A DNA stretch of 64,000 bases from Arabidopsis thaliana (taxonomy: Eukaryota; Streptophyta; Magnoliopsida; Brassicales; Brassicaceae): NCBI RefSeq assembly GCF_000001735.4, contig NC_003071.7:8921151-8985150 (forward strand), in the 5' to 3' direction. The position numbers and the translations under genes are program-made. Below are positions 4,960 through 59,833 of the stretch, one piece after another (position 1 is the stretch's first letter; each line of letters begins with the position of its first letter). Below the pieces are notes generated by a model. The model was not told where the DNA came from. It saw only the letters and a list, made by a program, of their open reading frames with translations, and made no database searches.

Positions 4960-6572
4960 ATGAAGCATCTTCTTCTTCTTCGTCTTGTTCTTCCAAAGCC
5001 AAATTACATTCTCAGAAGGAGCTTCCTTTTCCACTCCGGCAAGACCACACCATCGCCGTTGGACCCTTACGACACTCTGCAGCGTCGGGTCGCGAGATCC
5101 GGAGATCCCTCTGCTTCGATTATCAAAGTGTTGGATGGATGGCTTGATCAAGGGAATCTGGTTAAGACTTCGGAGCTCCATAGCATCATCAAGATGCTTC
5201 GAAAGTTCAGCCGTTTCTCTCACGCTCTCCAGGTCTCTCATTTCTGGATTCCTCTGTTGCTTACTTTCAAAAAAAAGTTCATCTTTTTTGTTGTTGTTAC
5301 TCTGTGATAATACGAATCCAAATCTTAAAAATGGTATCTTTTCTCTTCTTGTTGTTATTGTGATGATGTTAGATATCAGATTGGATGAGTGAGCATAGAG
5401 TTCATGAGATCTCTGAAGGAGATGTTGCGATTCGGCTTGATTTGATTGCTAAAGTTGGTGGTTTGGGAGAAGCAGAGAAGTTTTTCGAAACTATTCCTAT
5501 GGAGAGGAGGAACTACCATCTCTACGGTGCTCTCTTGAACTGCTATGCGAGCAAGAAGGTGTTGCACAAAGCTGAGCAAGTGTTTCAGGAGATGAAAGAG
5601 CTTGGCTTCCTTAAAGGTTGTCTTCCCTACAATGTGATGCTGAATCTCTATGTCCGGACTGGGAAATACACAATGGTTGAGAAGCTGCTGCGCGAAATGG
5701 AGGATGAGACTGTGAAGCCAGACATCTTCACAGTGAACACGCGGTTGCATGCTTATTCGGTTGTATCTGATGTAGAGGGGATGGAGAAGTTTCTTATGCG
5801 TTGTGAGGCTGACCAGGGGCTTCATTTGGACTGGCGCACTTACGCCGATACAGCGAATGGCTACATAAAGGCTGGATTAACTGAAAAGGCTCTAGAGATG
5901 CTGCGTAAATCAGAGCAGATGGTGAATGCTCAGAAAAGAAAGCATGCCTATGAGGTTCTCATGTCATTCTATGGAGCTGCAGGTAAGAAAGAAGAGGTGT
6001 ACCGTCTCTGGAGCTTGTACAAGGAGCTGGACGGGTTCTACAACACTGGATACATAAGCGTGATCAGTGCACTCTTGAAGATGGATGACATAGAGGAGGT
6101 GGAGAAAATTATGGAAGAGTGGGAAGCTGGACACTCCCTTTTCGATATTCGGATCCCACACTTGTTAATAACGGGTTACTGCAAGAAAGGAATGATGGAG
6201 AAGGCAGAGGAAGTAGTAAATATATTGGTCCAGAAGTGGAGAGTGGAGGATACAAGCACATGGGAGCGTTTAGCTCTTGGGTACAAGATGGCGGGTAAAA
6301 TGGAGAAGGCGGTGGAGAAATGGAAGAGAGCAATAGAGGTGAGCAAGCCAGGGTGGAGACCACACCAGGTTGTGCTGATGAGCTGTGTGGATTATCTGGA
6401 GGGTCAAAGAGACATGGAGGGTTTGAGAAAGATTTTGAGACTGTTAAGCGAGCGAGGACACATTTCATACGATCAGCTACTGTACGACATGAACGGTGCT
6501 GGACTGAGTTGGAAGATAGTCGATGCAATGGGAAAAGGTCGATACGTTGAGGAAAGAGAAGTACGAATCTAG
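4960..6572 (+). CDS. P-class pentatricopeptide repeat protein
   Basis: Helical-repeat RNA-binding protein, probably mitochondrial; PPR proteins of this class stabilise or process organellar transcripts. Exons are 4960-5232 and 5373-6572, giving 490 residues. The N terminus MKHLLLLRLVLPKPNYILRR is basic and hydrophobic without acids, like a mitochondrial presequence. About eight degenerate 35-residue repeats follow, for example YNVMLNLYVRTGKYTMVEKL and HLYGALLNCYASKKVLHKAE. There is no C-terminal E/DYW editing domain. The start was chosen because its paralogue at 8373 begins with the same MKHLL. The only intron interrupts HALQ/ISDWM at the same place as in that paralogue. Confidence 0.93.
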
Positions 6573-6858: not shown

Positions 6859-8373
6859 TTAATCATCTCCACCAACGTATCCTCCTCCTCTCATTGCCTC
6901 CACCATCTTCAGGCTCAATCGGTTTTTGTCCATTGCATGCGACACTTGCTCTCGCTTATTCAGAAGTCTCAGAATGTCGGCTGTACTCTCCATGTCTCTC
7001 CGACCCTCCACATATTGCACGCAGGCAAAAGCGGAGAGAGCCATGCTGTTCTTTGGGTTCCAGCGGTCATGCAGCCTCCCTTCCATGGCCTCTGCCACTC
7101 TCTTCCTCCTCTCCTCTTCTTTAGCATCTTCATCCTCCACCAAAGTATTAACCTTGTGAGCCAAACTCTCCCATTTGCTCTCCTTCTTCCCAAGCATATC
7201 AACAACCTTCTCAGCCTCCTCCTTCACGCATCTATGTTGGAGACCAAAGTCCATCAGATCAAGATTGGGACACTCATTCCACTCTTCCATAACCCCATCG
7301 AGATCACCCTTCTTCGTAAACGCCTTGACGATATCAGAACATCTGGAACTGTCAAAGGATATCCCATAGTCCTTAGCCAAGTTCCAGAGACGGTAAACAT
7401 CCTCTGTTAGATTCTCGTTACAATAAACAGTCATGAGACATCCATATATGATTTCTCTACAGCCGTCATCAACAAATGTCTCTGACCTACGAAGCAAAGC
7501 TAAACCCTTTTCCATAAATCCTGCTCGTATGTAGACCAATCCTGGAAAGTAGAATGTGGTCCATTTGTCCTGAATCATCACCTCCCACTTGCTCAAAAAC
7601 TTCTCCACACCTTGTACATCTACAACAGATGCCATAGAGTAAGAAGTCAAGAGCTTGACAAAGCATAGTCCTTGGGGTTGCATCTTTTTCTCGTCCATCT
7701 CGCCAAGAAGCTTCACCACCATGTCGTGATCTTCAGCCTGATGGTAGAGACAGAGCATGGTGCTATAGAATTGAGGATTGTTATCAGCAAAACCAAGTTA
7801 TCTCATCTTCTGAAAAGTAGTCTCAGCTATGCCCAAAGAGCTGTGTGTTTTGCAGCAGCTCAAGAGAGCGTTGTACAAATAAATATCTCTCTTTTCTACA
7901 GGAACAGTCTCGAAGAACTTAGCCGCTTCTTCCACACCACCAACTTTAGCAGCCAAGAAAAGTCGTCGCTCAAAATCCATTGAACTCAGCTTATAGGCTT
8001 TTTGTTCAATCATCCAATCCGATACCTAATAGCACAAAAAAAAAAACCTAAGATTAACAAATTTGTACAAGTCCCAATTTTGCTTGTTTTTGAAATCTCT
8101 AACCTGGAGAGCGTGAGAGAAGCGATTGGATCTGTGAAGAGAGGTAATGATGCTCCTGAGTTTTGAAAGTCCCGTTTGATTTCCGCGTTGGCACCATTCT
8201 CGGAGCAACGGAGTGATGGAGACTGACGAATCTTGGACTCTCTGGATCCGACGCTTGAGAGTGTCATTAATGAGCTCCGGCGAAGGAATGGTTTTGGGGA
8301 AATGAACGAAGGAACGTCTGCAAGGAAGGATCCAGAAGAAATTACTGAATTGTTGTCGGAGAAGATGCTTCAT
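6859..8373 (-). pseudogene. PPR paralogue with one premature stop
   Basis: This is an inverted duplicate of the PPR gene at 4960. Exons are 8373-8104 and 8025-6859, with the same intron position and the same MKHLL start. The reading frame is open over all 478 residues except for a single TAA at 7800-7798, between FQKMR and LGFADNNPQ. The intact paralogue reads MKELGFL there, so a GAA codon probably became TAA by one base change. Downstream the repeats continue cleanly (STMLCLYHQAEDHDMVVKLL and ILRLLNKREQVSHAMDKNRL) to a stop at 6861. The lack of further damage suggests recent inactivation, an allele difference, or use of a downstream start. It is called a pseudogene with that reservation. Confidence 0.85.
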
Positions 8374-8763: not shown

Positions 8764-9474
8764 TTCTTTATGCAGCAAGATCAAAATGAAAAAACTACAC
8801 ACAATAATCAACAAAACACACAACTGACACAATCGAAAAACTTCGTAGATGAATATGAATATATGAATGATCGTGTTACTACGCAAGAACAAGAATGCAA
8901 CAAGAAGCAGAGAAAGATAGAGGACTAAGAAGAGAGGTAAAACGCCATGTTTATAATCTCATGAATACAGAATCACCGAACACGGCTTTTTATAACAAAC
9001 ACTTGAAACTGTTTAACCGACTCCGGTACAATTAGTTCCTTGGTTTAATGTCTTTAATGAGTGCTTAAACCGGTGATTCGATTTCACAATTCAGCATTTT
9101 TTTCCAATGTTTTAAAGATAAAATCACACGAGGAGTAACAAAAAGTCTTTGTCGTTTATGGGCAAGAGACTTCAAACGACAAGGGGATGATGATGGCGGC
9201 TCAGTTTTTACTATCAAATCTTCAACTTAGTAAATTAGTAATTCTCTTACGTCTAGTATCTTGTATAAATTATATTGTTATGGCTATCATGCATAAATAA
9301 AATTTCTAAACACACATATTAAACACTCTTTGTTTATACATCAGTAAACTCTAACTTCCAATATTAGTATATTACCATGAAAATTTTATCGATTTTATGG
9401 ATTATGTTGCATGTATTCAAAGTAAACGAAAGATAACAAAGTTGATCATAAACCACCAAGTTTGACTCTTCCTT
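8764..9474. other. Intergenic, A/T-rich
   Basis: No coding frame with family support and no clear repeat were seen between snoRNA candidate 4 and the hairpin at 9475. Confidence 0.5.
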
Positions 9475-9590
9475 TCCATTTGTCATTTGTAGAACTGCCT
9501 TGGAGGTCAAGCTAAAATCTATCTTCCTACTTGTTAAGCAAATAAAGGTTAGCTTGGCGTACAAGGACAATTTTACAAATGACAAATGGA
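9475..9590. repeat. 116-nt inverted repeat / stem-loop (MITE or MIRNA-like)
   Basis: The left arm starts TCCATTTGTCATTTGTA, and the right arm ends with its exact reverse complement TACAAATGACAAATGGA. Pairing continues inwards (AGAACTG-CCTTG against AAAATTGTCCTTG, then CAAGCTAA against its complement), so about 45 nt of each arm can pair around a loop of roughly 20-25 nt. The element is too short to code. It could be a tiny MITE or a young microRNA-type precursor. No obvious target-site duplication is visible. Confidence 0.7.
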
Positions 9591-10407
9591 CACGCAGCAA
9601 GTAGCAACTATAGTAACTAGCAAGGATGTTCTGACTTCTGAGTCACGTTGGATTACACTTATTAGATTGGGCCTTGATTTGTATGTTATTGGGCTTAGAG
9701 AACGTGAGCTAATCTTATAGATTGATTCACTGCTAGAGCCCCGTCTGTCATGTTTATGTCATTGTGTTTTGGATGTGAGAAATGGCGTATGGTCAACAAC
9801 ACTCAAGACATTTGTTAAATAGTGGGAAAAGCAGATAATGTTCCAAGTAAAATGATAGGGAAATCATGGAACTGAGCCCCAAATTACAATGTGGTTGGAA
9901 CAAGTTCAAAATAGCATACAATCATTAGTCAGAACCAAATTTTCTTGTGGCTCTTCTAAATACAAGAAATTTACCCAACATACAATACAAGTTAAATGGA
10001 AACATGACACATCCAAATAAAATTCCAGTAGGAGAGGAGAGGCCAAGGCTTGAATTCTCAGTTGTGATCCTTCTTCCTCTACATATTGTTAAGACAAAGA
10101 GATGGAAGTATTACCAAATCATGAACAAGGAATTAGAGTTTCTTTGTGTGGTCGAAACCAAATCCAGTATTTCCACAAGCAAAAGATTCATTCTAAACCA
10201 TTTTCCATGATTTGACATACGAGTTCGTTTATTATAGATATTGCTACAGATTTCAGGTATGACAACCAAACGACTACGAAATAACTAAGATGGTAAGATT
10301 TAAACAAGTTCACGGATTTCGTTGGAGACAACAACATAGAGCATATAAAATCTCTACACTACAACAAAACTAGCACTCCTCCTAGGCAAAATTAACAATA
10401 GTAAACT
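9591..10407. other. Intergenic
   Basis: TGGGCC and TGGGCT (site II-like) occur at about 9666-9694, which could belong to a promoter reading towards snoRNA candidate 4. Otherwise there are only short open frames without family support. Confidence 0.4.
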
Positions 10408-10551: not shown

Positions 10552-10637
10552 TAAAGGCCTCAGAAAACATTTTGTACAAGTTATATCATTGGTTTATCAA
10601 ACAATGTAGGCAAAATTTGAATCATCATAGGCCTTAA
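10552..10637 (-). ncRNA. C/D-box snoRNA candidate 2
   Basis: Minus strand: stem AAGGCC, box C ATGATGA (10628-10622), guide TTTTGCCTACATTGT followed by a D'-like TTGA, then C'-like AATGATA, box D CTGA (10563-10560), and stem GGCCTT. It shares the guide core GCCTACATTG with candidates 1 and 3 and aligns end to end with candidate 4. The stem is a six-base perfect pairing. Confidence 0.8.
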
Positions 10638-10693
10638 AGCTGCAACAATGGCAAAGAGAGATACAAATCTCAGACAGGAAAATTGAAGGAGCA

Positions 10694-10776
10694 ATGAGCC
10701 TCAGACTAATTAAAGAATTCATTTCAGTGGTACATCAAACAATGTAGACAATCTTTTTCAATCATCACTGGCTCTT
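10694..10776 (-). ncRNA. C/D-box snoRNA candidate 1
   Basis: Minus strand: stem GAGCC, box C GTGATGA (10768-10762), guide TTGTCTACATTGT followed by TTGA, an internal CTGA, box D CTGA (10704-10701), and stem GGCTC. The guide differs from candidates 2 and 3 by one C-to-T change that would still pair as G-U. It is nearest to the promoter at 11.07-11.2 kb. Confidence 0.75.
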
Positions 10777-22128: not shown

Positions 22129-23958
22129 TCACTCCGCCTTGGTTCCCTCGGCCTCAGTCACAGCTACAGGTTTCTCTCCCTCTCCCGAGGCAGCAGCATC
22201 AGGTTTCGCTGTTTCAACACTTGCGTCTTTGGCAGGTGAAGGACGTTTTTCCTCTGTCACCTTTGGATCTGCAGGTTTCCCATCTTTTAAGTCCTTAGCG
22301 TCTTTCCCTCCTTTTGCATCCTTCCCATCTTTCCCAGTTTTTGCATCTTTGCCATCTTTCGCATCCTTCCCATCTTTGGCATCTTTGGCTGGAGGAGGAG
22401 GCGGCATCATGTGAGGTGGGGGATTTGTCTTGAGCTTCAAGAATATCTGCCTCATTCTCCCTAGATCAGTTGGCTTCCCAGGTTTAGGACCCTGAATAAC
22501 ATTCACTGATGGTTTCTTGTCCGGATCCTTTTTCCCTCTCTTTTTCTCAATGTTGGGAACCTCACGAGGGATTAGCTCTGCAATTGCTTTCCAGTAATGC
22601 TTGTCAACTTCTTTGTGGAACTTCTCTTGGTTAGCCCAGTATAGCTGCAAGAGAGGCAAAACTCACACAAGTTTCCAATACATCCAAAAAATCCCAAATG
22701 GCTGTGAATAGGAATTCTATCACTACTTACCTTCTCCTTTTCACGGTTATCAGTCTTGTTGGTCTCAATGGTCTTGTCTCTTTTCTCATAGAAGGCTTTC
22801 TTGAAATCTTCTGCTTCAGTTATGATCTGATTCCGCATCTCCTTCTCTTTCTTTTCCTTCTCCTCAAGGTGAATGGTGTTCAAACTGCACCAATGCGTGC
22901 CAAAATATCAGTTTAATTATGTCGAACAAGAAAAGCATGGTGGTTCCAGTCTAATCTGATACAGAATTCAAACACCAGAGAAGAAGATGATAGCTACAAC
23001 ACATACACTATTCAGGTTCTTTCTTATTCCAAATCAGATCACAGAGATTCTTTCATATACATAAAACAAAAAGCACGGTGGTTCCATTCTATCTGATACA
23101 GAATTGACACATCACAGAAGAAGATGATAGCTACAACACATACACTATTCAGATTCTCTCCTATTCCAGTACAGATCGCAGAGATTCTTTCGTATATGAT
23201 GAACTAAAAACCGTGGCGGTTCAAGTCTCTAATCTAATACAGAATGGAGACATCACAGAAGAAGATAATAGCTACAAGCCTACAACACATATACTACTCA
23301 GGTTATTTCTTATTCCAAAGCAGATCACAGATGAATTGCAATTGAAATCTGACCTACTTCAATTTCCTTAGTAACTCAGTCATAAAACACATTACTTTCA
23401 GTTTCAGTAACAAATGCGGAAACAATGACAAAAAGGTCACATCTTTCTAATAGTTGATCAAATGTGGAGGATCGCACAATCAAATCAAAGCTAAAATGAT
23501 TCAAATTCCACCTAAGATCTAGTAATCTACCATAGTCACAAGCTTGAGATCTAGCCCTATTCCATAACAAGCGATGAATTGAAATGAAAAAGCGAGAATT
23601 AGAACACTGACCGGCGCCACTCACGGCGTTGGAAACCCTCCTCTCTCATCTCATTTGGATCTGGAAGAATCGGACCATCGGAAGCGAAGATCGCATCACC
23701 ACCGCTGCCGCCGCCGTTTCCGTTAGCATCGTTAACGGAAGATTCAAAAGGCGAGGAAAAGTCATGGTTAGGTGAAGAAGCACCAAATCCATATCCATTT
23801 GGGGAAGCAGGATCTCCATTGAAAGAAGAGAATCCACCGGATTGATGTTGAGTCGGAGGTTGCTGTGCTTCGGAGAAATTATCGTAGCCACCAAAGTCTT
23901 CGTGTTCAGACGGAGAATGGGTTTGAGCTGGGAAATCTCCATCATCAAAAGTCGCCAT
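22129..23958 (-). CDS. CLC1: Clathrin light chain 1
   Basis: Regulatory subunit of the clathrin triskelion, binding heavy-chain legs during endocytosis and trans-Golgi budding. Exons are 23958-23612, 22884-22731 and 22644-22129, giving 338 residues. The acidic N terminus [20 protein letters not shown] is followed by a Gly/Ser/Asn-rich region. The heavy-chain-binding helix is [20 protein letters not shown] and onward to [20 protein letters not shown], with a bipartite Trp signature. The C-terminal third is unusual: a run of KDA/KDG/KGG triplets (about residues 270-300), then [13 protein letters not shown]. Intron 1 contains three ~138-bp tandem repeats, listed separately. Confidence 0.96.
22933..23332. 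repeat. Three ~138-bp tandem repeats in CLC1 intron 1
   Basis: Units begin near 22933, 23071 and 23209 (landmarks AAGCATGGTGGTTCC, AAGCACGGTGGTTCC, ACCGTGGCGGTTCAAG). Each carries CTGATACAGAAT or a variant, AGAAGAAGATGATAGCTACA and CAGATCACAGAGATTCTTTC. The units differ at perhaps 10-15 percent of positions, so the array is old enough to have diverged. It is spliced out of the CLC1 message. Confidence 0.85.
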
Positions 23959-26345: not shown

Positions 26346-28020
26346 TCAAAACTCCTGTTCCTTGCGCACAAGACGCTCAGCATCTCCAAGCTCAACTTCA
26401 CCGTCTTTTCTTTCCAGCCCACCCTGAAACATCAACTCTATCTGCTCCAGTGACTTCCCGCTTGTCTCGGGGACTAGCACATACACGAAGATAACTGAGA
26501 GTGCAGACACGAGGGAGAAAACGAAGAAGGTTCCTCCAACAGTGATGGCACGTGACACAGAGAGGAAGGACATGGCCACCAGACCGCTGCACACCCTGTT
26601 CCCAACCGCCCCAAGCGCAGATGCCTGGGCTCTTAATCGTAATGGAAAGATCTCTGATGTCAAGACCCAGCAAACAGGTCCCATTCCTATGGAGAAGAAG
26701 GCAACGTTTCCACAAACAAAGAGAAGCGCCAAGGTTATCCCAAGCGTTCCTTGGCCGAGGAATGTGAGCGTAAAGCTTAGACAAAAGAGACACAGAGTCA
26801 TTCCTATTGTGCTCACATAAAGCAGCGGTTTCCGGCCAACACTATCAATCAGGAAGGTGGCAAATAGTATGAACACTGTTTTCGTGACACCAACAGCGAC
26901 AGTTGCAGCGAGCAGTTTGGTCTCGTCTTGTATCCCAGCCTCTTTCAGGATCTCTGGACTATAGTAGACTGTGGCGTCAATTCCTGTGATCTGCTGGAAA
27001 CACTGGATTCCAAATCCAACAATCAGCATTTTCCGTACAACAGGAGATGGGCTAAGAAGCTCACGCCACACGGGCCTGTCCTCGCTGCCTTCTGTATGTG
27101 CAGCCGCCAGTTGTATCTCTGCAAGCCGCTCTTCCGCTTCGTCATCTCGCTCATTCGTTTTCATGAGCACCTCTCGTGCACTGTCCACTCGGCCTTTCAT
27201 CACCAGCCACCTCGGCGACTCAGGGATCACACACAGCGCAAATCCTATGAACACCGAAGGAAGAATCCCAACTGCAAGCATGATCCTCCAGCTGATATGC
27301 ACGGAAAGCCCCGAGAAAGCGTAGTTCGAAACATAGCCCAGCAAGATCCCTAGATTTATGAAGATCTCAGGGAACGAAGTGAAAAATCCTCTAGCTACGG
27401 TGGGGGATATCTCGGCGATGTAGACAGGAGCGATCATGACACCAAGCCCAATCCCAATGCCGGCTAAAGTTCTCCCTATCATCAAAACCTCGAAAGACGG
27501 AGCGACAGCCATCACGGCAGCACCAGTCTGGAAGACGAGAGCAGCCAAGGCCATGGTCCATTTTCTACCGATAGAGTCAGAGGTTCTGCCGCCGGCTAAG
27601 CTGCCAAAGAGTGAGATGATGCTAAGGCTACCAATGAGCACTTCCGTCTGCACCTCCGTTATTTTGAGATCCTGCTGTATGAACAACACCGCACCGCTCA
27701 TTACCCCAACATCTGACAAATACCAAAAACAGAGCACACATACCTTTTTGTAAGTCAACAAAGTAAAGAAGAAGAAGAAGAATCCGATTATATAAGTAAA
27801 ACCGACCGTAGCCGAGAAGAACATTGTTCAAGGATGCAAAAAAGGCACAAGCCATAACGTATTTTCTGGTTCTACTGTTTCTAGCCTCTGCTTCACGATG
27901 ATTCTGCGATTCCTCCGCGTCGGAGTCCATTCTCTGATACTTATTCTTCTTATTTCCGACAGAGACCGCCGGAAAACCCGAGCCACCGCCATTACCAACC
28001 TCCGGAAGATTCTTCATCAT
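26346..28020 (-). CDS. PLT4: Polyol/monosaccharide H+ symporter
   Basis: Major facilitator superfamily sugar/polyol transporter of the plasma membrane. Exons are 28020-27807 and 27712-26346, giving 526 residues. Twelve membrane spans are apparent. Signature motifs: GGRTSDSIGRKW (loop 2-3), PESPRWLVMKG after TM6, QQITGIDATVYYSPEI in TM7, DSVGRKPLL (loop 8-9), and PETSGKSLEQIELMF after TM12. The N-terminal cytosolic tail is Gly/Lys-rich. The only intron falls just after the first span (LNNVLLGYG/DVGVMSGA), the position expected for the polyol-transporter subfamily. The symbol (also PMT4) is from recall of the locus. Confidence 0.92.
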
Positions 28021-32101: not shown

Positions 32102-34549
32102 TTAGATGCTGCTAGAGTCACGGCCAAAGACAAAGCGTCGAGTCCAATCAGAGATGACGAGCATCCTTGTGCGCCAGCTCACCAGTTTGCTGGCGTAGAC
32201 AGAGTACCAAAGCCACTGGCTGCTGTGTCCAATGGAGACCCAATCTCCTGGCAGTTCAGCTGCTGTCTGTTCCCCTCCCAGTGGAGCAAACGATCCAAAA
32301 TGTCTGTACCTGAATGGCTGGAACCGATGTCGACCCTCTCCTCTGAACCTCAATGGTCCCTCTGGCTTCTTCTCACATTTCTCCATTTTGTTGAAGCACT
32401 TTGCAAGGTACTTCCCTTGTTGTGATGCAACCTGTATAAGAATCAAAACATCAAAATCTGTGTGGTGGATTGATTTCATCTTGTTTTGATCTATAACAAG
32501 CTTACCTGTGCAGTTGCTGGAAGGTTCTTCATCTGTGAATCAACCTCAGAGAGAGCTTGCTTAAACTTTTCGATATTCACTTGTGTGTCCTCACCATTTG
32601 CACTCTTGAGCAAGTTTGCAATGTTCTTCAGCTTATTCTTCTTCAAGTAGAGCTCCACCTGAGGGTACCTCTGGCAAATGTCTTTAACCACACTATTGAA
32701 ATCTTTCTTCTTCAAAGTTCCTGTGTTTCCCTTGTCTGCTTTGTTGAAAATCGCAGCTATATCTTCCTGTTTGTTCAACAACATCAAGACAAAACAGAAG
32801 GTTAAAGATTCATTCATCAACTGAGATGTGACACAAAGGAACAATGTCAAGAGAGATGATACCATGACTCTGCGTTGGTTGATCGTTGCAGTGTCACCTA
32901 AAGCATAGACACCGTCACATCCCTCTACTCTAAGCCATTCGTCGGTAGCCAAGACACGTCTCTGTCCCTGTAACCATACTCAATCTAGTTAGGTGGGACA
33001 CTAGCAAATGATTTGGTTAGTCAAATGATTTCTTCATGTGATCAAGTGTAATCTAACCTGACCAATCTGCTGCATAAAGTCTTTGATGACAGGACGTGAA
33101 CCAATTCCTGTTGACCACACAACCATACCATAAGGTTCGGAGACAATCTTGCCAGTTTCTCTTTCCTTTGTGGATATCTCATCAGCAGTCACTCCCACAA
33201 CCATTGAACCTGTCTTCAGATCAATACCATCTCGCTGGAACTTTTCCTCAGCAAAAGCAGTGATTCTCTTGTCAAACCTGAAGTAGAATTGAACCAACAT
33301 TGGAAAAGCAGTAGATTTAGCCAAAGTTAATGAAGCTTGATGGGTGGAACTTACATGTTGAGAATGTGGTCGCCTGCTTCAAGAAGAGTGATTTTTGTGA
33401 ACTCTTGGACCTTTGGGTAAATCTTAGCCACATCCTGGACTAGGAAATCATGAAGCTCTGCAGAGAACTCGACTCCAGTTGGTCCTCCACCAACCACAAC
33501 GAAATGCAGAATCTTTTTCCTCTCTTCTTCAGTTAGATTCGGAAGAGAGGCTCTCTCGAAACAGTCGATGACTGAATGACGAATGTTTAGAGCATCCTCT
33601 GCTTCTTTGAGGAAATAGGCATGTTCCTCAACTCCAGGGGTGTTGAATGTGTTAGGCTTAGCACCAACAGCTAAGATGAGAATGTCATAATCCATGTCAA
33701 ACTCTGTTGTGCCCTTAAGACTTGACCCTTCCTTGGACCGGCAGTGGATTTTCTTGTTCGATGCATCAATCTTGACACACTCTGCTTCTTTGTACTCAAA
33801 TCCTTTCTTGCGCATAAGACCACGAATGGGTTCAACAATGCTACGGGCTTCGACAGTACCATTGGTGACACTTGGCAAGAGAGGAGTGAAGAGGAAAAAG
33901 TTACGAGGAGAGACAACTTGAACATCATAGTTAGGGTTGTTCAAGTAACTCAAGAAGCTGTAGCCGCTCCATCCACTGCCAAGAACGACCACCTTCTTCT
34001 TCCTTATTGGGTTGCCATCTGAGTCAAGAGTAGCGTCTGCGTGTAATATACGTTTCAATGGATTCGAGTCTGAATACACCAGTACACCACCACCACCACT
34101 GGACAACAATACATAAAAAGACACAAACCAAAATAATTGTTAGACCCACGTTACTTAAAAAAAACATAGATCTGAGTCGAAAAAGGTATGAAGCTTATAG
34201 AGATGGTATGCATTATATCATGCATCACAGCTAGGGAAGAGGCCAAAAGAGGACAAGCGAAAAATTCGGACACGTGCATAGGAGTGGTCAAAAACATCAC
34301 AAGACTAAAAATACTAAGAAAACAGTCAAAGCATCTATAAAGAGAATTGGAAACAAAAGAGTTATATAGATTCTACAGCTAAAAGAAGAATAAGAAGAAG
34401 AAGAAGAAGAAGAAGAAGTGTAGAATGGTGAAGGAGATCTAAAGGAGAATAAGGAGAGACCTGAAAGTGCTGAGAAGAAGAATCTTGGAAGTAGAAGGGT
34501 AAGCCTTGAATAAGCTAGAAGCTCTCTGGTAAAAGCTATGGAAACTCAT
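32102..34549 (-). CDS. NDB4: External alternative NAD(P)H dehydrogenase, mitochondrial
   Basis: Type II NAD(P)H:ubiquinone oxidoreductase on the outer face of the inner mitochondrial membrane; it passes electrons to ubiquinone without pumping protons. Exons: 34549-34461, 34098-33355, 33277-33058, 32967-32863, 32766-32506 and 32431-32102, giving 582 residues. First dinucleotide-binding fold (FAD): KKVVVLGSGWSGYSFLSYL; second (NAD(P)H): HFVVVGGGPTGVEFSAEL, whose second strand ends in an acidic residue (ITLLEAGD), favouring NADH. GVYALGDTATI closes the FAD site. An EF-hand insert follows, but its loop DKGNTGTLKKKD lacks acids at positions 3 and 5, so Ca binding is doubtful. Intron 1 holds a GAA repeat (34384-34418). 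Confidence 0.96.
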
Positions 34550-36776: not shown

Positions 36777-38460
36777 ATGAGAAGGAGAGGAGGGGATAGT
36801 TTCCGGAGAGCTGGACGGAGGAAGATCTCGAATGTGGTATGGTGGGTTCTCTCTGGTATTGCCCTCCTGCTCTTCTTTCTCATTCTCTCCAAAGCTGGTC
36901 ATATTGAACCTAGACCCTCTATTCCTAAGGTATATTCAATCTCAAAGATCTCTTCTTTTGTTCGATTTCAATTGCTAAATTCGAACCCTTTCTTTTGTGC
37001 AGCGACGTTACCGTAATGACAAATTTGTAGAGGGTATGAATATGACTGAGGAAATGTTGAGTCCTACTTCCGTTGCTCGTCAAGTTAATGATCAGATTGC
37101 TCTTGCTAAAGCTTTTGTTGTCATTGCTAAAGAAAGTAAGAATCTTCAGTTTGCTTGGGACTTAAGTGCTCAGATCCGTAACTCTCAGTTGCTTTTATCG
37201 AGTGCTGCTACTAGGAGAAGTCCCTTGACTGTCTTGGAATCTGAGTCTACTATTCGTGACATGGCTGTTTTGTTATATCAAGCTCAGCAGCTTCACTATG
37301 ATAGTGCTACTATGATTATGAGGCTTAAGGCCTCGATTCAGGCTCTTGAAGAACAAATGAGTTCCGTTAGCGAGAAGAGTTCCAAGTATGGACAGATTGC
37401 TGCTGAGGAAGTGCCTAAGAGTCTTTACTGTCTTGGTGTTCGTCTCACTACCGAATGGTTTCAGAATTTAGACTTACAGAGAACTCTTAAGGAAAGGAGT
37501 CGTGTTGATTCGAAACTCACGGATAACAGTCTCTACCATTTCTGTGTGTTTTCCGATAACATTATTGCTACTTCTGTTGTGGTTAATTCTACTGCTCTCA
37601 ATTCCAAGGCCCCTGAGAAAGTTGTGTTTCATCTTGTGACTAATGAGATCAACTATGCTGCAATGAAGGCTTGGTTCGCCATTAATATGGACAACCTCAG
37701 AGGAGTCACTGTGGAGGTTCAGAAGTTCGAGGATTTCTCATGGCTGAATGCTTCCTATGTTCCGGTCCTCAAGCAGCTGCAAGACTCTGATACGCAAAGC
37801 TATTATTTCTCTGGACACAACGATGATGGGCGCACTCCAATCAAATTCAGGAACCCCAAGTATCTTTCCATGCTCAACCATCTTAGGTTCTACATCCCTG
37901 AAGTGTTTCCTGCGCTGAAGAAGGTGGTCTTTCTTGATGATGATGTTGTAGTTCAGAAGGATCTTTCATCTCTCTTTTCGATCGATTTAAACAAAAATGT
38001 GAACGGGGCTGTTGAGACCTGCATGGAGACCTTCCACCGCTACCACAAGTACTTGAACTATTCTCATCCTCTCATACGCTCCCACTTTGATCCAGATGCG
38101 TGTGGGTGGGCGTTTGGAATGAACGTCTTTGATTTAGTTGAGTGGAGGAAGAGAAATGTGACCGGCATATACCACTACTGGCAAGAAAAAAACGTGGACC
38201 GGACCTTATGGAAACTGGGAACACTACCTCCAGGACTTCTGACATTTTACGGGTTAACAGAGGCACTAGAGGCGTCCTGGCATATCCTGGGATTGGGATA
38301 CACGAATGTGGATGCTCGTGTGATAGAGAAAGGAGCTGTTCTTCACTTCAATGGGAACTTAAAGCCATGGTTGAAGATCGGGATAGAGAAGTACAAACCT
38401 TTGTGGGAGAGATACGTTGATTACACTTCTCCTTTTATGCAACAATGCAATTTTCATTGA
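36777..38460 (+). CDS. GAUT10: Galacturonosyltransferase 10 (GT8)
   Basis: Golgi type II membrane glycosyltransferase of family GT8, acting in pectin (homogalacturonan) and possibly xylan synthesis from UDP-sugars. Exons are 36777-36929 and 37003-38460, giving 536 residues. A short cytosolic tail of basic residues (MRRRGGDSFRRAGRRK) precedes the anchor VVWWVLSGIALLLFFLIL. The luminal stem is followed by the catalytic domain: VFHLVTNEINYAAMKAWFAI, the DxD-type metal/UDP site in VVFLDDDVVVQKDL, GWAFGMNVFDLVEWRKRNVT, and HFNGNLKPWLKIG near the end. All GT8 hallmark residues are present and the length is usual. Confidence 0.96.
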
Positions 38461-38837: not shown

Positions 38838-40767
38838 ATGAAGAGCTGTGAGCATGAACTACTCAAAACAAGAAGAGGAAAGTCCCGCGAGGTTAGTTCA
38901 CGTTTTCTCTCTTCGCCGTCTGCATCTTCTTCTCCTAACCGCAGAAACTCCACTTCTAATTCATCGAGAGATGATCAGAACAACAACGGGGTAAAAGGTC
39001 ATCTAGGCTTGAAAAAGCATGATAGGATGTCAGATGGCACACGGGTTTGTTTCGGGTTACCAAACCAAAGTAGCATAGAAGTTGACACAAAAGAAAATCG
39101 TATGCCTTCACCGTGGATCAATGATGAGGATAACGTCATACTTCCTGGCAGATTTTCTGTTGATGAATGTGCATTGTACAGAGCATCATCAAGGAGAAAC
39201 TCATGCTCTCTGCTATATGAGTCCTTCAACGATGAAACAGACTCAGAGTTGAGTGATGTGTCCTGTGCTTCAAGTCTTAGTACAAATCGTTCATCCTGGA
39301 ACCATAAACCCGGTATCAAGGTCTCTTCTAAGTATCTGCATGATTTAACAGCTAAACCGAGCAAAGGCAACAACAAGACCAAACTAAGGTCACAAGATGA
39401 TTCACAGAGAACTAATAGCTCTAAGGGCATTGAGAATAGATTGCAGAGGAATAATTCAGTGTCCAGGTATGGAAGTTCGATGTCTCAGTGGGCTCTTTCA
39501 CCAGGAAGGTCATTGGACACTCAGGCGGTGACAGTTCCAAGTTCAAAACTGAAGCCTCCAAGAGGAAAAGGCGTGGGTAAACTAATCAACCTTGGTTTCG
39601 ATTTCTTCAGGAGCAAGAACAAGTCATCGCCCTTTACTTCACCACTAAAACCAAAGACATGTGACACAGAATCTGCTCATCAGCTGAAGCTTATGAATAA
39701 CCGGTTGCTTCAATGGAGGTTTGTCAATGCTAGAGCCTGTGATGTAAACAAGAACGTAGCCTCCCAAGAAAAGGTAATGATTGTATCATCACTTCTTCTC
39801 ATGCTTGTCACTTTATTGACTTTCACATAATCATGAGATCTTTGCTTTCTTCATCCTTTGAGGCATGAAATAAAATAAAAGTGAACAACTTTTGCAGAAT
39901 CAACTACTCTGTGCATGGGATACTCTTATCAAGTTAAATAATTTGGTTCTGCAAGAGAGAATCAAACTGCAGAAGAAAAACCTGGAGATGAAGCTGAATT
40001 ATGTGTTTCTTTCTCAAGTAAGTGTCAGGTCCAAACCCATTTACTTATTCCAAGCAATGGAGGATATAAGCAAATATAAACAGGGTTGATACGAAATATA
40101 TCTTAAACAGGTTAAGCATCTTGAAGCTTGGGAGGACATGGAAATACAACACCTTTCATCTCTGTCCATAATCAGAGATTCCCTGCATTCTGTTCTTTCC
40201 AGGCTTCCCCTCAAAGAAGGCGCGAAGGTAAATTAAATCATGCTCCTCTGATCTGTTAACTATTTGAACTCAAAACAAATATTCTTTGTCTCTATTTTCC
40301 AACAACTCCTAAGGTTTTTTCAGGTGAACTTGGAATCAGCTGTCAGTATAATTAAGAATGCAGAAGCAGTCACTGATGCTATCATTTCAACTGTGGATGA
40401 TTATGCTCCCACGGTAGGTTTTTCTGGCTCTGCGACAAATGTGACATGATAGTCGTGTATCTAAGCGGTGTAATAACCTATAATGTTCCAGTAGCAGATG
40501 GAGGGTATTGTTCCACTTGCTTCCCAACTAGCGGAAGTGGTTGTACAAGAGAAGTTGATGCTCGAGAAATGCCATGACCTTTTGAGAATGATTTCCGAGT
40601 TAGAGGTATAAAGATTGTGTGTGTATTAACATTTAAAGACCTGATCTGATATGTTTCTGTTCTCTGATCATATTTTGGGATGTACACAGATGCAGGAGAG
40701 GAGCTTGAAATGCTGCTTCCTGATTCAACACAAACAGACTTTCGATACAAATCTTCTTAAACACTAG
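38838..40767 (+). CDS. QWRF3: QWRF-motif (AUGMIN subunit 8-like) protein
   Basis: Microtubule-associated protein of the DUF566/QWRF family, related to augmin subunit 8, which recruits gamma-tubulin to microtubules. Exons are 38838-39773, 39898-40017, 40111-40227, 40324-40413, 40498-40605 and 40690-40767, giving 482 residues with all exons in phase 0. The N-terminal two thirds are Ser/Asn/Arg-rich and basic, a likely microtubule-binding region. The family signature QWRF is in MNNRLLQWRFVNARA. The C-terminal third is helical (LIKLNNLVLQERIKLQKKNL, HLEAWEDMEIQHLSSL), the expected coiled coil. Exon 5 uses the second of two nearby AGs because the first would bring in a TAG. Confidence 0.94.
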
Positions 40768-41549
40768 GACTGTGTCTTCCCCTGTCAAAGCTTTGCGACT
40801 CAGTTTTTTAAAAGCAAAAATTACAGTATTTTGAGGCTTAATAAATGTTGCGACTCTCGTAAGAGTCTTAGGTTCTCTGTATCAGATGGAACAAGATGGT
40901 AATAACCAGTACACATAAGCACTTTTGATGGTAATTTCCACTTGTTTCTTTCTTGGATATTGGGTTTAGTTATCTCTTTTTCAATATGCTTTGATTGCAA
41001 GAAACAGAGTCAAGAAGTGTGTAGTGTCCTCCTCTCCCGAGTGGATTTGACCATATCTTCTATATGACCGAAACCACACTTCCTTGCAGCTCTCATGGAC
41101 TTGTTAAAACTCAATCATGTCACATTGCAAGATAAGTACTCTTCGTCCGCTCTAGAAACATTTATTGATGACATGGACTAGGAATACAAGAAAAGAGAGT
41201 AATGCACAAGTTCAAAACAGCGAGAGACTACATGAACATTAAAGACATGAAACAGTAATTTCAAACCTGATATTATTACTCAGCCAAAGCGTGGCCCAGT
41301 TATTTGAACGACTTTGGAAACAGTAATATCATTTATATACTACTATTAAGATTTAAGAATAAGCGTTTACCAAGAAAGAGAATATTCAGTCCTCTCAAAT
41401 GGGAAATCGAAACGTCATGAAAAAAAGAGGAAAATAAATGAAAAGAGAGAGACGCTTTGTTCTATATATAAAGGAACCCTAAACAAGTGGTAAAGAGCAA
41501 AGCAAAACCTTTTAGTTTCAATGTCTAAATTCTATTCATAAACCCTAAA
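40768..41549. other. Intergenic
   Basis: QWRF3 3' UTR, then A/T-rich DNA. A TATATATAA at about 41463 and a telo-box-like AAACCCTAAA lie just before the GeBP-like fragment and may have been copied with it. Confidence 0.4.
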
Positions 41550-41729
41550 TCGATCCATGTCTTAGAAACGATAGAAATTCCGCTGAAGATATCTTCAAGC
41601 GACGAAGATGAAATGGAGACTCCAATTAGAGAAGAAGGTGAAGAAGACTCTTCGTCGGAAGAAGAAGATGATGATATGTCTTCTAATAACCCATCAGCTG
41701 CAACAGAGAAGCAAAAGAGAGTTTATTGA
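41550..41729 (+). pseudogene. Acidic fragment resembling a GeBP/storekeeper-like N terminus
   Basis: One frame reads ...TIEIPLKISSSDEDEMETPI, then REEGEEDSSSEEEDDDMSSN up to a TGA at 41727. There is no in-frame ATG, and it ends before any DNA-binding domain. Ser/Glu/Asp-rich leaders of this kind are characteristic of Arabidopsis GeBP/STKL transcription regulators. The assignment rests on composition and recall only. It lies ~100 bp before the MBD-like copies, so the two probably arrived together. Confidence 0.35.
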
Positions 41730-41829
41730 GTAAAAACGAAATTTATAGGAGATAATTTTTCCTTCGTCATTTCAACCATAAAGCCAAACCACAAAAAAAA
41801 ATCTCTTCATCTCCCTCAAAACTTGAAAT

Positions 41830-42377
41830 ATGGTGAAAACAACTACTCAAGGTACATCACGTAAGATATTGACAATTTTTTATTTTTATCATTGCATGAA
41901 AATTCGTTTTGTCATAATCTTAATCTCTATTTGATCTATGTGTGTAGCGAAAACCAATGACAACGTTAATTGACTCATACACTGCACAATGTTGAAAGTG
42001 TTTCAAAGTGAGATATAGAGAGTCACAAGAAGAGTACGAAAAGAATCAAAGTAAAACTCCGAAAAAAGTCTTTTGAATGCAAGAGATGTGAAAAATCTAG
42101 AGATGTGGTTGTGAACTTTGATTCCCCTATTGTGCGTTGGTTTCAGGATGGACATGGTATACCCAACACCCCTCAAGGTTTGAAGAGGGTTTTGATCGTC
42201 AGAACAAGCTGCGAGAAAGCCGATGTTTAATATGAAACATTAGCTCCTAAACGAAAGAGACTAAATACTGTGAAGAAAGTCACTAAGTTTATTGAAGACA
42301 ATGAACAATTCAAAGACATGAAGATTGAAGAGGTTTCTTTTACCGCACCCAAACAGCTGAAAAGGAAAAAGTTCTAA
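41830..42377 (+). pseudogene. CW/methyl-CpG-binding domain gene copy, degraded (left arm)
   Basis: A first exon (MVKTTTQGTS, donor at 41861) joins in phase at 41948 to a CW zinc-finger remnant (DSYTAQC, KCFKVRYRESQEEYEKN, FECKRCEKSRDVV). The MBD region follows: TPQGLKRVLIVRTSCEKADV, then YETLAPKRKRLNTVKKVTKF and EVSFTAPKQLKRKKF. This order (CW, W.QDG.GIP.TP.G, ADVYY, FIEDN, SF..PK) is that of Arabidopsis MBD1-4 proteins, closest in feel to MBD3. The frame is broken: a TGA replaces the conserved Trp codon of the CW finger, there is one extra A near 42070, and a TAA replaces Tyr in the ADVYY motif. It is non-coding now. Confidence 0.75.
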
Positions 42378-42845
42378 ATAATGATGTTATAGTTGTTGAT
42401 ATTAAAACTTGAAAAATCAACAAGTTAAGGAAACTAAAGAGACAGAATAAACCTTAACTTGTTGATCTTTTCAAGTTTTGTTATCGGTAACTACAACATC
42501 CTTACTTATATTTTTTTCTTTTCAGCCGTTTGGGTGCGACAAAAGAAACCTCTTCAATCTTCATGTCTTTAAATTGTTTATTGTCTTCAATAAACTTAGC
42601 AACTTCCTTCACAGTCTTTAGTCTCTTTCGTTTAGGAGATACTGTTTCATAATAAACATCGGCTTTCTCGTAGCTTGTTCTGACGATTAAAACCTTTTAT
42701 AAACTTTGAAGGGTTTTGGGTATTACCATGCCCATCCCGAAACCAACGCACAGTATGGAATCAAAGTTCAAACACATCTCCAGGTTCTTCACATCTCTTG
42801 CATTCAAAAGACTTTTTCGGTGTTTTACTTCGAATCTCTTTGCAT
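42036..42845. repeat. Large near-perfect inverted repeat (~395-bp arms, 21-bp loop)
   Basis: The left arm 42036-42430 and right arm 42452-42845 are inverted copies of the same CW/MBD sequence, separated only by AAACTAAAGAGACAGAATAA and one further A. The arms match over almost their whole length with scattered differences (for example ACCGCACCCAAACAGCTGAA against GTCGCACCCAAACGGCTGAA); I estimate 85-90 percent identity by eye. A transcript across it would fold into a ~400-bp hairpin, the structure that Dicer-like enzymes process in plants. Confidence 0.85.
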
Positions 42846-42861
42846 TGGATCTTAATAATGT
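42502..42861 (-). pseudogene. CW/MBD gene copy, degraded (right arm)
   Basis: Second copy on the minus strand. Its C-terminal MBD part is still in one frame: VRTSYEKADVYYETVSPKRK, KTVKEVAKFIEDNKQFKDMK, EEVSFVAPKRLKRKKYK, stop at 42504-42502. Further upstream it keeps KTPKKSFECKRCEEPGDVFE, but a TGA follows in that frame, and the first exon and most of the CW finger are missing. It retains the Tyr-Tyr that the left copy lost, so the two arms have decayed independently. Confidence 0.75.
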
Positions 42862-43299
42862 TTGAGCCGACCATGTTCTACATATGATGAACAAAACTCA
42901 AGCACTAGCGATTATTAAGGCTTTTTTTTTTATTTCTATCGATCTTTTTTTTTTTACCTATTGATAATGTTGATGTTGAAATACTCAAACATGGAAGTGG
43001 AATTCAAAAATACAACTAAAGATCTGTTTTCTTAGTACATACAGAATTGAGAAACAGAGAGATGAAAAATGCCAAGAGTGTGAACAAAAGTCCACAAAAC
43101 AAAAGCCTCTGACGGAGAAGGAGGCTTTTAGGTGTTACCCAAACAAAACGCACACAATACGGCGTCGTTTAGAATCAGAAAAGACATTTCTTTATGGTCA
43201 CTTGATTCTCTCTTCCTTCATCAATCAATCTCGTCTCCTGGAAAACATTAGGGAGCCTCTCAGATCCTCAAGAAAACCCTAAATCAAAAGTCGAGATCG
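42862..43299. promoter_or_regulatory. Promoter of the 93-residue protein gene
   Basis: Contains ACGGCGTCGTTTAG (43159-43172) and a telo-box AAACCCTAAA (43275-43284), a pairing typical of nuclear genes for mitochondrial or ribosomal proteins. Confidence 0.6.
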
Positions 43300-44016
43300 A
43301 TGGCGTCCTTCGCTCGCCGTGCCATGAGCTTAGCTCAGATCCCATCTGCTCGTATTTCCTCTGGAGCCGCTTCTATTGGTCAGCGTCGTTGCCTCGCCGG
43401 CGCCGCTGGTAAATTCTCTCTCCCTCTTCCTTCTCTTTTCGATATTTACGATTTTTTTCGGTATCAATTTTGGTGGCGTATAGCTTATTTCGCACATTTT
43501 ATGTCTAATTTGTGTTTTCACGAATTTTAGATGAACCAAATGTTACAACTTTGTGAAGATTTTGTATATCATTGGCGTTGTCAGGTTCCAAATTGAATCA
43601 CTGTATACAAAAAATTGAGTTTTTGAGCATTTTGTGGATTTGTCTGTGTACTGTGCAGATCACCATGGATCTACCAAGGTTGACTTCTGGAAACAGCCCA
43701 CGAACCCAGGAAACTGGAAAGAGGAGCATGTATGTATCAATCATGTGTTTGTGACACTGTGTTTTTGTTAATGAAAGCTGTGATTTTTTGTTGAATTGAT
43801 TCCTTCTGTTACCTGACCAATCTGCAGTTTGTGCTTATTTCTCTGTCTGGCTGGGGCTTACTTTTCTACAGTGGATACAAGCTCGCCACTGGGGGAAAAA
43901 AAGAGGTACTTACTCTTGCTCTTCAGCTCTTGCTCTTCTTCCATTGCCTAGAGGCTTCGGGTTCCTTCCCTTATACATAGTTTTTTTTGCAGACGCCTGT
44001 GGAGAGTACACAATGA
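43300..44016 (+). CDS. Small mitochondrial-type single-pass membrane protein
   Basis: Exons are 43300-43408, 43659-43729, 43828-43905 and 43993-44016, giving 93 residues. The N terminus MASFARRAMSLAQIPSARIS is rich in Arg/Ser/Ala with no acid, a textbook mitochondrial presequence. The mature part is DHHGSTKVDFWKQPTNPGNW, then a single membrane span FVLISLSGWGLLFYSGYKLA and a short tail GGKKETPVESTQ. The topology resembles accessory subunits of respiratory complexes, but I recognise no named family, so a role in an inner-membrane complex is only inference. The last exon codes for seven residues plus the stop. Confidence 0.85.
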
Positions 44017-44694: not shown

Positions 44695-45645
44695 TCAAAT
44701 GGGTTTGGCATTGGTGGTGAAATCGAGGCAAGTCTGGCAGTTACAATCAGAGAAACGGCAGAGCTTGCAGCCGAAGCAGACGCAAGAAGTGCAGCCTTTG
44801 CAGGACGGTGAGCGAGTGCAACCTCTGAACACTTTCCTGCTCCCTCTTTCTTCCTCCTCCTCGCATGTTATCTTGTCGTATGGGTAATCGCAACACTTCC
44901 AATTAGGCTCAGCAATTGCATCATGGTGCATCCGGCATTCCCCTCTGCTCCTCAATCTGAACCTCCTCTCCTTCCCGCATGTGCTGCACCCAACAAACTC
45001 ATCCCGATGAATGACTTTCGATACGTTAGAGTTCTTCAATGCTTTGTTGTAGTATCTGAGCAACACTGTCTTTGAAAGCGGAACCTTGTCTCCTTCAATG
45101 AACACCCAAACATTGTTCCTCCAGTTTCTAGAGGTTTCTCTCTCAGAATGCTTCTCGAAGGCAGCAGGCGTCAACTTGTCTACCATCATAGAATGAAAGC
45201 TGTCAATCAGATCACTTTGAAAGAAACTCGAACTTGTGATATAAAATGGAGATACATTACAATGTAAGGTTATCCCACACTCTAAAAGACTGCATGAAAC
45301 ATATCACATCTAGCAAATACAAGCAGCCTCATAGTTCACCGAGGCCAAAGAACAGTTACATTGCATTCTTGACACTATCATGAATCCATACACATTCACA
45401 TGGAACATGCATATAGAAAGATGTGAGAGAGAAGAAGAGGAACCTTCGAGACAAGCAGGAGTGCATTGGCAGGTGATTTGAAGTTCTCCATCTGAAAATA
45501 TCTTAAGCCTCGCAACGGCGTCTCCGTAACGGTGGCTGGTGCAGCCACACATGACCTCGACGTAATCGTCTCCCACATGGACTCCACTTATTTCTTGTAG
45601 CTCCTCTTTGCTGAACAACTCCTTCGACCCACATTCTCTCTCCAT
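44695..45645 (-). CDS. ULT2: ULTRAPETALA2, SAND-domain trithorax-group factor
   Basis: Developmental chromatin regulator that, with ULT1, limits shoot and floral meristem size and counteracts Polycomb repression. Exons are 45645-45444 and 45179-44695, giving 228 residues. A SAND-like domain spans roughly residues 20-120 (VHVGDDYVEVMCGCTSHRYG, DKLTPAAFEKHSERETSRNW, RNNVWVFIEGDKVPLSKTVL). The C-terminal half is a Cys-rich B-box-like zinc region: VGCSTCGKERRFRL, GECRMHHDAIAEPNWKCCDY, GCTRSPSCKGCTSCVCFGCK, CRFSDCNCQTCLDF. The intron splits a Glu-Asp junction. All Cys/His ligands appear intact. Confidence 0.95.
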
Positions 45646-58485: not shown

Positions 58486-59833
58486 ATGCATTCGCGCTCC
58501 GCCTTGCTCTATAGATTCCTCCGTCCGGCGTCGAGATGCTTCTCCTCTTCCTCGGCTGTAACTCCGGTCACCGTAACGCAATCTCCCAAGAGTCTCGAGG
58601 CTCTTCGAGCTCGGCTGGCGAATGAGTCGCCTTCCCTAACCGATTTCATCCACGGCGATACCTATTCGGTGGAAGTTGGAACCAAAAAGAAACCTCTCCC
58701 GAAACCTAAATGGATGAAGGAATCAATTCCCGGCGGCGAGAGATATGTCCAGATCAAGAAGAAATTGAGAGACCTTAAGCTTCACACCGTCTGCGAGGAA
58801 GCGAAATGTCCCAATCTCGGTGAGTGCTGGTCTGGTGGTGAAACTGGAACCGCCACCGCTACGATTATGATCCTTGGGGATACATGTACACGCGGCTGCA
58901 GGTATCATCATCTACCGAATTTGCCCAGCTTGATTCTCTCTTTTCTCTGAAAGGGCTTCTATTTTAGGTTTTGTAATGTGAAGACATCGCGTACACCTCC
59001 ACCGCCTGATCCAAATGAACCTAACAATGTGGCTGAAGCAATTGCTTCCTGGGGGGTTGATTATGTTGTGATCACCAGTGTAGATCGAGATGATTTACCT
59101 GATCAAGGGAGTGGTCATTTTGCTGAAACTGTTCAGAGATTGAAATTCTTGAAGCCGGAGATGTTGATTGAAGCACTAGGTAATATAATGATCTGGTGGG
59201 ATTGATCATCATGAGTTTTGGTTTTTAATTTGTTTTGTTGTTTGATGATGTAGTTCCTGATTTCCGCGGAGATGGTGGATGTGTTGAGAAGGTTTCCAAG
59301 TCAGGGCTTGATGTCTTAGCTCACAACATTGAGACAGTTGAAGAGCTTCAGAGTTTTGTGCGGGACCATCGTGCTAACTTTAAGCAGTCATTGGATGTGC
59401 TTAGGATGGCTAAGGAGTATGCACCTGCAGGCACCTTAACAAAGACTTCTGTAATGCTGGGATGTGGAGAGACCCCTGATCAAGTGGTTAAGACAATGGA
59501 GAAGGTGAGAGCAGCAGGGGTTGACGTTATGACATTTGGCCAATATATGCGACCATCTAAACGCCACATGCCAGTAGCTGAGTACGTGACACCAGATGCC
59601 TTCGAGAGGTATCGCCTTCTTGGCATGGAAATGGTAATGGTCTCTTCCTTGTTTTCAAGTTTTATTAGCTGAGAATTGCAATGGGAAAGTAGGCTAATAT
59701 GGAATCTTGTAAACAGGGATTCAGATACGTAGCATCAGGACCAATGGTGAGGTCGTCGTACAAAGCGGGAGAGTACTACATAAAGTCGATGATAGAAGCC
59801 GATCGAGTGGCTTCTCCTTCTACATCCCCGTAG
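58486..59833 (+). CDS. LIP1: Lipoyl synthase, mitochondrial
   Basis: Radical-SAM enzyme inser­ting two sulfurs into octanoyl groups on lipoyl domains (pyruvate and 2-oxoglutarate dehydrogenases, glycine decarboxylase H protein). Exons are 58486-58901, 58968-59179, 59254-59633 and 59717-59833, giving 374 residues. A Ser/Arg-rich mitochondrial presequence opens [20 protein letters not shown]. Auxiliary cluster cysteines: [12 protein letters not shown] (CX4CX5C). Radical-SAM cluster: CTRGCRFC (CX3CX2C), split by intron 1. The C-terminal RSSYKAGE supplies the conserved serine that ligates the auxiliary cluster. All motifs are intact and the length is standard. Confidence 0.97.

Follow-up and report, generated by a model that had tools for sequence, protein, structure and literature searches.

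Inverted gene duplications in Arabidopsis and the locus under study

The PAI4 and PAI1 copies of Arabidopsis are near-identical. They are described as a tail-to-tail inverted repeat that gives rise to siRNAs and is hypermethylated, next to the VIM4-VIM2 inverted repeat of Arabidopsis Cvi-0, a head-to-head arrangement of ~6.4 kb with a coding identity of 99.86% in Cvi-0, whose siRNAs act both in cis and in trans and are accompanied by local methylation and a reduced VIM1 level (PMC13213937). The DCLs that make siRNAs have been presented as acting generically on fold-back transcripts from endogenous inverted repeats, among them IR71, which forms a dsRNA of ~3 kb and for which siRNAs were shown (PMC12825306). 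Both siRNA loci and young MIRNA genes are established as arising from inverted duplications of genes, paired pseudogenes included (PMC3237417, PMC1790633), and the two reports support the statement in the first-pass annotation of the present locus that such an arrangement is an accepted starting state for new MIRNA genes. Many local inverted duplications have been described in Arabidopsis, with varied small-RNA output (PMC1790633).

The locus described here is a pair of degraded copies of a methyl-CpG-binding-domain (MBD) gene, located in a 64,000-nt stretch of Arabidopsis thaliana DNA that was analysed as a whole (hereafter the window). Like VIM4-VIM2, it contains inverted copies of a gene linked to DNA methylation, from which a fold-back RNA is possible; like PAI4-PAI1, these copies lie tail to tail; and, like IR71, it would offer a non-coding fold-back that DCL2/3/4 could process. 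With young MIRNA genes it shares the inverted duplication of a protein-coding gene, leaving adjacent inverted pseudogenes of one parent. Unlike the first three systems, for which siRNAs have been reported, the MBD pair is known from sequence alone. It also differs from VIM4-VIM2 in being pseudogenic, with short arms (391 bp) of only 89.4% identity, and from IR71 in that its hairpin would be about eight times shorter, while it is set apart from young MIRNA genes by the lack of an Rfam match at gathering score and of any discrete miRNA or target found. Inverted duplications of this kind are already known in Arabidopsis. Since the VIM4-VIM2 case has been published, the idea that such a repeat might silence a gene of the methylation pathway is plausible, though it lacks novelty.

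Structure and predicted folding of the inverted repeat

The inverted repeat at 42040-42842 is real (Table 1). Alignment of the two arms gave 345 matches, 41 mismatches and 10 gap columns, corresponding to 89.4% identity without gaps and 87.1% with gaps; the remaining part of the left copy (41830-42039) lies outside the aligned arms. The layout proposed in the first-pass annotation, tail-to-tail copies with 21 bp between arms of ~395 bp, was borne out. Two copies of a single gene lie next to each other in opposite orientations, both with disrupted frames, and the locus can be classified as an inverted-duplication pseudogene pair. As expected of a hairpin-siRNA locus, a transcript through both arms would be self-complementary and is predicted to form long dsRNA.

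Table 1. Features of the inverted repeat and of its surroundings (positions in the window)
Feature	Position	Strand	Description
Sugar transporter	26346-27824		Pfam
GAUT-type glycosyltransferase	36997-38460		Pfam
QWRF protein	38838-39830		Pfam
TATA-like box	41463-41472	+	Upstream of left copy; motif scan; candidate read-through promoter element
Possible intron, left copy	41861-41947	+	GTAAGA ... GTAG motifs; after short first-exon-like stretch
CW-finger N-terminal-like remnant, left copy	41978-42067	+	Translation by eye, TGA at 41993; mostly outside arm
Left arm	42040-42430	+	3' part of MBD-domain pseudogene, plus 53 bp past stop codon
Spacer / hairpin loop	42431-42451	.	21 nt; loop of predicted + fold; AATAAA inside
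Right arm	42452-42842	-	Second MBD pseudogene copy, opposite orientation
ULTRAPETALA-type protein	44695-45189		Pfam
Lipoyl synthase, N-terminal part	58486-58950		Pfam

In the fold predictions, an RNA reading through both arms would form an imperfect duplex of ~390 bp, whichever strand is transcribed, as had been anticipated in the proposal of a long double-stranded hairpin. The minimum free energy was -518.6 kcal/mol for the + RNA (shuffle mean -177.3) and -531.3 kcal/mol for the - RNA (shuffle mean -181.8), and in neither case did any of 20 shuffles fold as low. The hairpin was retained in the predicted fold of a longer RNA (41490-42960). When 76 non-overlapping pieces of 841 nt from the window were folded as a control, the piece with the locus reached -517.2 and the next one -252.1. 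Comparison of the window with itself (blastn, minus strand, E up to 1e-5) returned two other self-pairs of 75.2% identity (117 and 129 bp) and one of 68.0% (194 bp), and neither this search nor the folding of the 76 pieces found a comparable structure elsewhere in the window. Three perfect runs of at least 21 bp (30, 30 and 22 bp) are distributed along the whole arms.

Coding content of the two copies

The typed translations submitted to Pfam, in which frameshifts were bridged and stops replaced by X, matched the MBD family (PF01429) with 29.2 bits for the left arm and 31.1 bits for the right arm, above the cut-off of 21. The locus had been described as carrying a CW finger plus an MBD; the MBD was recovered in both arms, whereas the CW finger was reduced to a remnant in the left copy that scored below the cut-off (zf-CW, 7.9 bits, E 4.1, against 27.5), with none listed for the right copy. 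A match of the right copy to Sep15_SelM (E 0.072) was taken as chance, its score being under the cut-off. The 3' ends of both copies face the spacer, and ~50 bp past the left stop codon are common to the two; given this common 3' flank, the arms most likely derive from a single duplicated sequence rather than from two independent domain insertions.

Decay of the copies and age of the duplication

In the left copy, stops were found at 41993 and 42228 together with one extra A in a run near 42062, while the right copy has several small indels relative to the left arm, including those near 42774, 42771, 42759 and 42724, and its MBD frame is interrupted by a stop at 42699. No lesion common to both copies was seen in the aligned coding part, which suggests that the duplicated stretch probably had an open frame when it was copied and that each copy decayed afterwards. 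The earlier view that the arms had decayed separately in coding terms agrees with the lesions, which differ between the copies. Between 42075 and 42377 the arms differ at 12 first, 8 second and 11 third codon positions, with 8 more differences past the left stop codon, a spread in which no protein constraint between the copies can be traced.

The K2P distance between the arms was 0.116. At substitution rates of 7e-9 and 1.5e-8 per site per year this corresponds to 8.3 My and 3.9 My, respectively, which suggests that the duplication is millions of years old; if gene conversion took place between the arms, the true age would be greater.

In addition, pairing had been described as largely kept. 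Moderate neutral divergence would give the same result, and no sign that the hairpin is maintained was seen. In this respect a wobble test was applied, as a transition in one arm turns a pair into either G:U, which still pairs, or A:C, which does not, depending on the transcribed strand, and selection for pairing in the RNA of one strand should therefore skew the counts. For the + RNA, 14 transitions were of the G:U type and 15 of the A:C type (reversed for the - RNA), an unskewed distribution that reveals no strand-specific selection for pairing, although with 29 transitions the test has little power and is blind both to a constraint acting on both strands and to gene conversion between the arms. 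As judged from these two arms, the decay is probably neutral.

Transcription signals and flanking sequence

The left copy includes a short first-exon-like stretch with an ATG at 41830. Judging from the motifs, the TATA-like box upstream and the possible intron may allow transcription, whereas an AATAAA on the + strand within the spacer (42446-42451) could terminate a + transcript ahead of the second arm, so that the TATA-like box and the AATAAA point in opposite directions as to transcription through both arms.

Capture by a mobile element is conceivable but finds no support in the sequence. Between 40500 and 44500, a search for a transposon origin identified five inverted pairs, all of them parts of the arms, and four families of direct repeats of only 20-23 nt, and the flanks had in common only three matches of 10-15 nt, with E values between 0.018 and 0.28.

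A short acidic open stretch is located just upstream of the left MBD copy (41565-41729). Its sole Pfam listing was PF15449, at E 0.67 and below the cut-off. The stretch resembles the N-terminus of storekeeper-like (GeBP family) proteins, so that fragments of two genes may be combined in the left unit.

Searches for relatives and RNA families

No Rfam family was found at gathering score across the locus. With E values up to 1, eight sub-threshold matches were listed, five of them to miRNA families (the best being MIR5048, with 45.8 bits against a gathering score of 160) and the others to plastid psbJ-2, Streptococcus and Wolbachia families; as all lie under the gathering score, they were taken as generic hairpin resemblance. 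Pattern searches gave 8 stretches in viral contigs and 259 in prokaryote genomes, of which, as expected, none was confirmed as a relative, and plasmids gave no match; these three collections are uninformative about plants. Of two PDB sequence searches, one had no match and the other a single match at E 3.8, taken as chance.

No publication naming this locus or an MBD inverted repeat was found in the literature covered, although published tables of small-RNA loci may include it. In the main texts of PMC12825306, PMC1820830, PMC3237417 and PMC1790633 neither "At2g20" nor "MBD" occurs, and "At2g20" is likewise absent from the main text of PMC2877095.

Origin and possible activity of the locus

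We consider it probable that the locus is an old, neutrally decaying MBD inverted duplication that is at most a weak, mainly cis-acting source of siRNAs, with no indication of a kept silencing of MBD genes. An MBD-domain gene would have been duplicated in inverted orientation, leaving tail-to-tail copies with a common 3' coding part and ~50 bp of 3' flank, after which both copies would have become pseudogenes and decayed neutrally for millions of years. Any transcript reading through them would fold into an imperfect ~390-bp hairpin, from which DCL2/3/4 could release small amounts of mixed 21-24-nt siRNAs, chiefly cis-acting if at all. If the locus is inert, which is likelier, it is an example of an inverted gene duplication that decays, apparently without becoming a MIRNA gene; if it is active, it would tie RNA silencing to proteins that read DNA methylation, as for the VIM genes in Cvi-0.

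Overlapping with this explanation, and entertained only tentatively, is a low-level siRNA source restricted to cis, which would methylate the repeat, and possibly also the region upstream of the gene with its ATG at 43300, leaving the MBD genes unregulated. The hairpin potential predicted for both strands would allow it, as would, by analogy, the role of endogenous fold-backs as generic DCL substrates described in PMC12825306. CG sites are depleted in the left arm (7 against 11.8 expected) and close to expectation in the right arm (11 against 11.8), and the CG-poor left arm would fit local methylation. However, only 4 of the 29 transitions between the arms are at CG sites, which gives no sign of strong decay through CG methylation.

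That the locus is an active source of hairpin siRNAs, reducing the expression of MBD genes in trans through mRNA slicing or directed methylation, as VIM4-VIM2 does with VIM1, appears improbable. A strong hairpin is predicted on both strands, and siRNAs from one published inverted repeat of methylation-pathway genes offer a precedent for action in cis and trans (PMC13213937). Nevertheless, the arms are less alike than the VIM4-VIM2 coding sequences in Cvi-0, the wobble test revealed no constraint, transcripts may be cut short by the AATAAA in the spacer, and the modest Pfam MBD scores (29-31 bits) suggest that the arms may resemble living MBD genes only weakly. AtMBD3 has been reported as highly expressed in pollen and seeds (PMC10384339); that the locus tunes a reproductive MBD gene through small RNAs in the normal state of the species, rather than in one odd accession, is nonetheless highly unlikely in our judgement, and a feedback between small RNAs and the readout of methylation is a conjecture. 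Finally, a proto-MIRNA locus on its way to a discrete miRNA is highly improbable. The origins in inverted duplications and pseudogene pairs published in PMC3237417 offer an analogy, but all matches to Rfam miRNA families stay under the gathering score and the perfect runs extend along the whole arms with no single short foldback set apart.

Neighbouring genes and other features of the window

Seven proteins from the window were run against Pfam and five gave families (Table 1), while no family was obtained for the ORF at 32491-32952 or for the typed gene from 43300. These genes suggest that the window is plant nuclear DNA. The gene order presumably corresponds to A. thaliana chromosome 2 at about At2g20780-At2g20860 (GAUT10, QWRF3, ULT2, LIP1).

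Several other features were observed at a distance from the MBD pair. An imperfect palindrome of 117 columns at 9475-9590 may represent a MITE or the precursor of a miRNA; it has no Rfam match at gathering score, and folding of 9455-9610 gave -53.6 kcal/mol, compared with a mean of -30.1 for shuffles (z -6.4, with 0 of 200 as low). A tandem pair of SNORD34-family C/D snoRNA genes lies on the minus strand at 10553-10776, and direct repeats of ~130-260 bp with 79-81% identity are present at 22918-23331. Finally, 5351-5544 and 7854-8047 form a 194-bp inverted match of 68% identity, which, by eye, we take to lie in or beside two oppositely oriented PPR-like genes.
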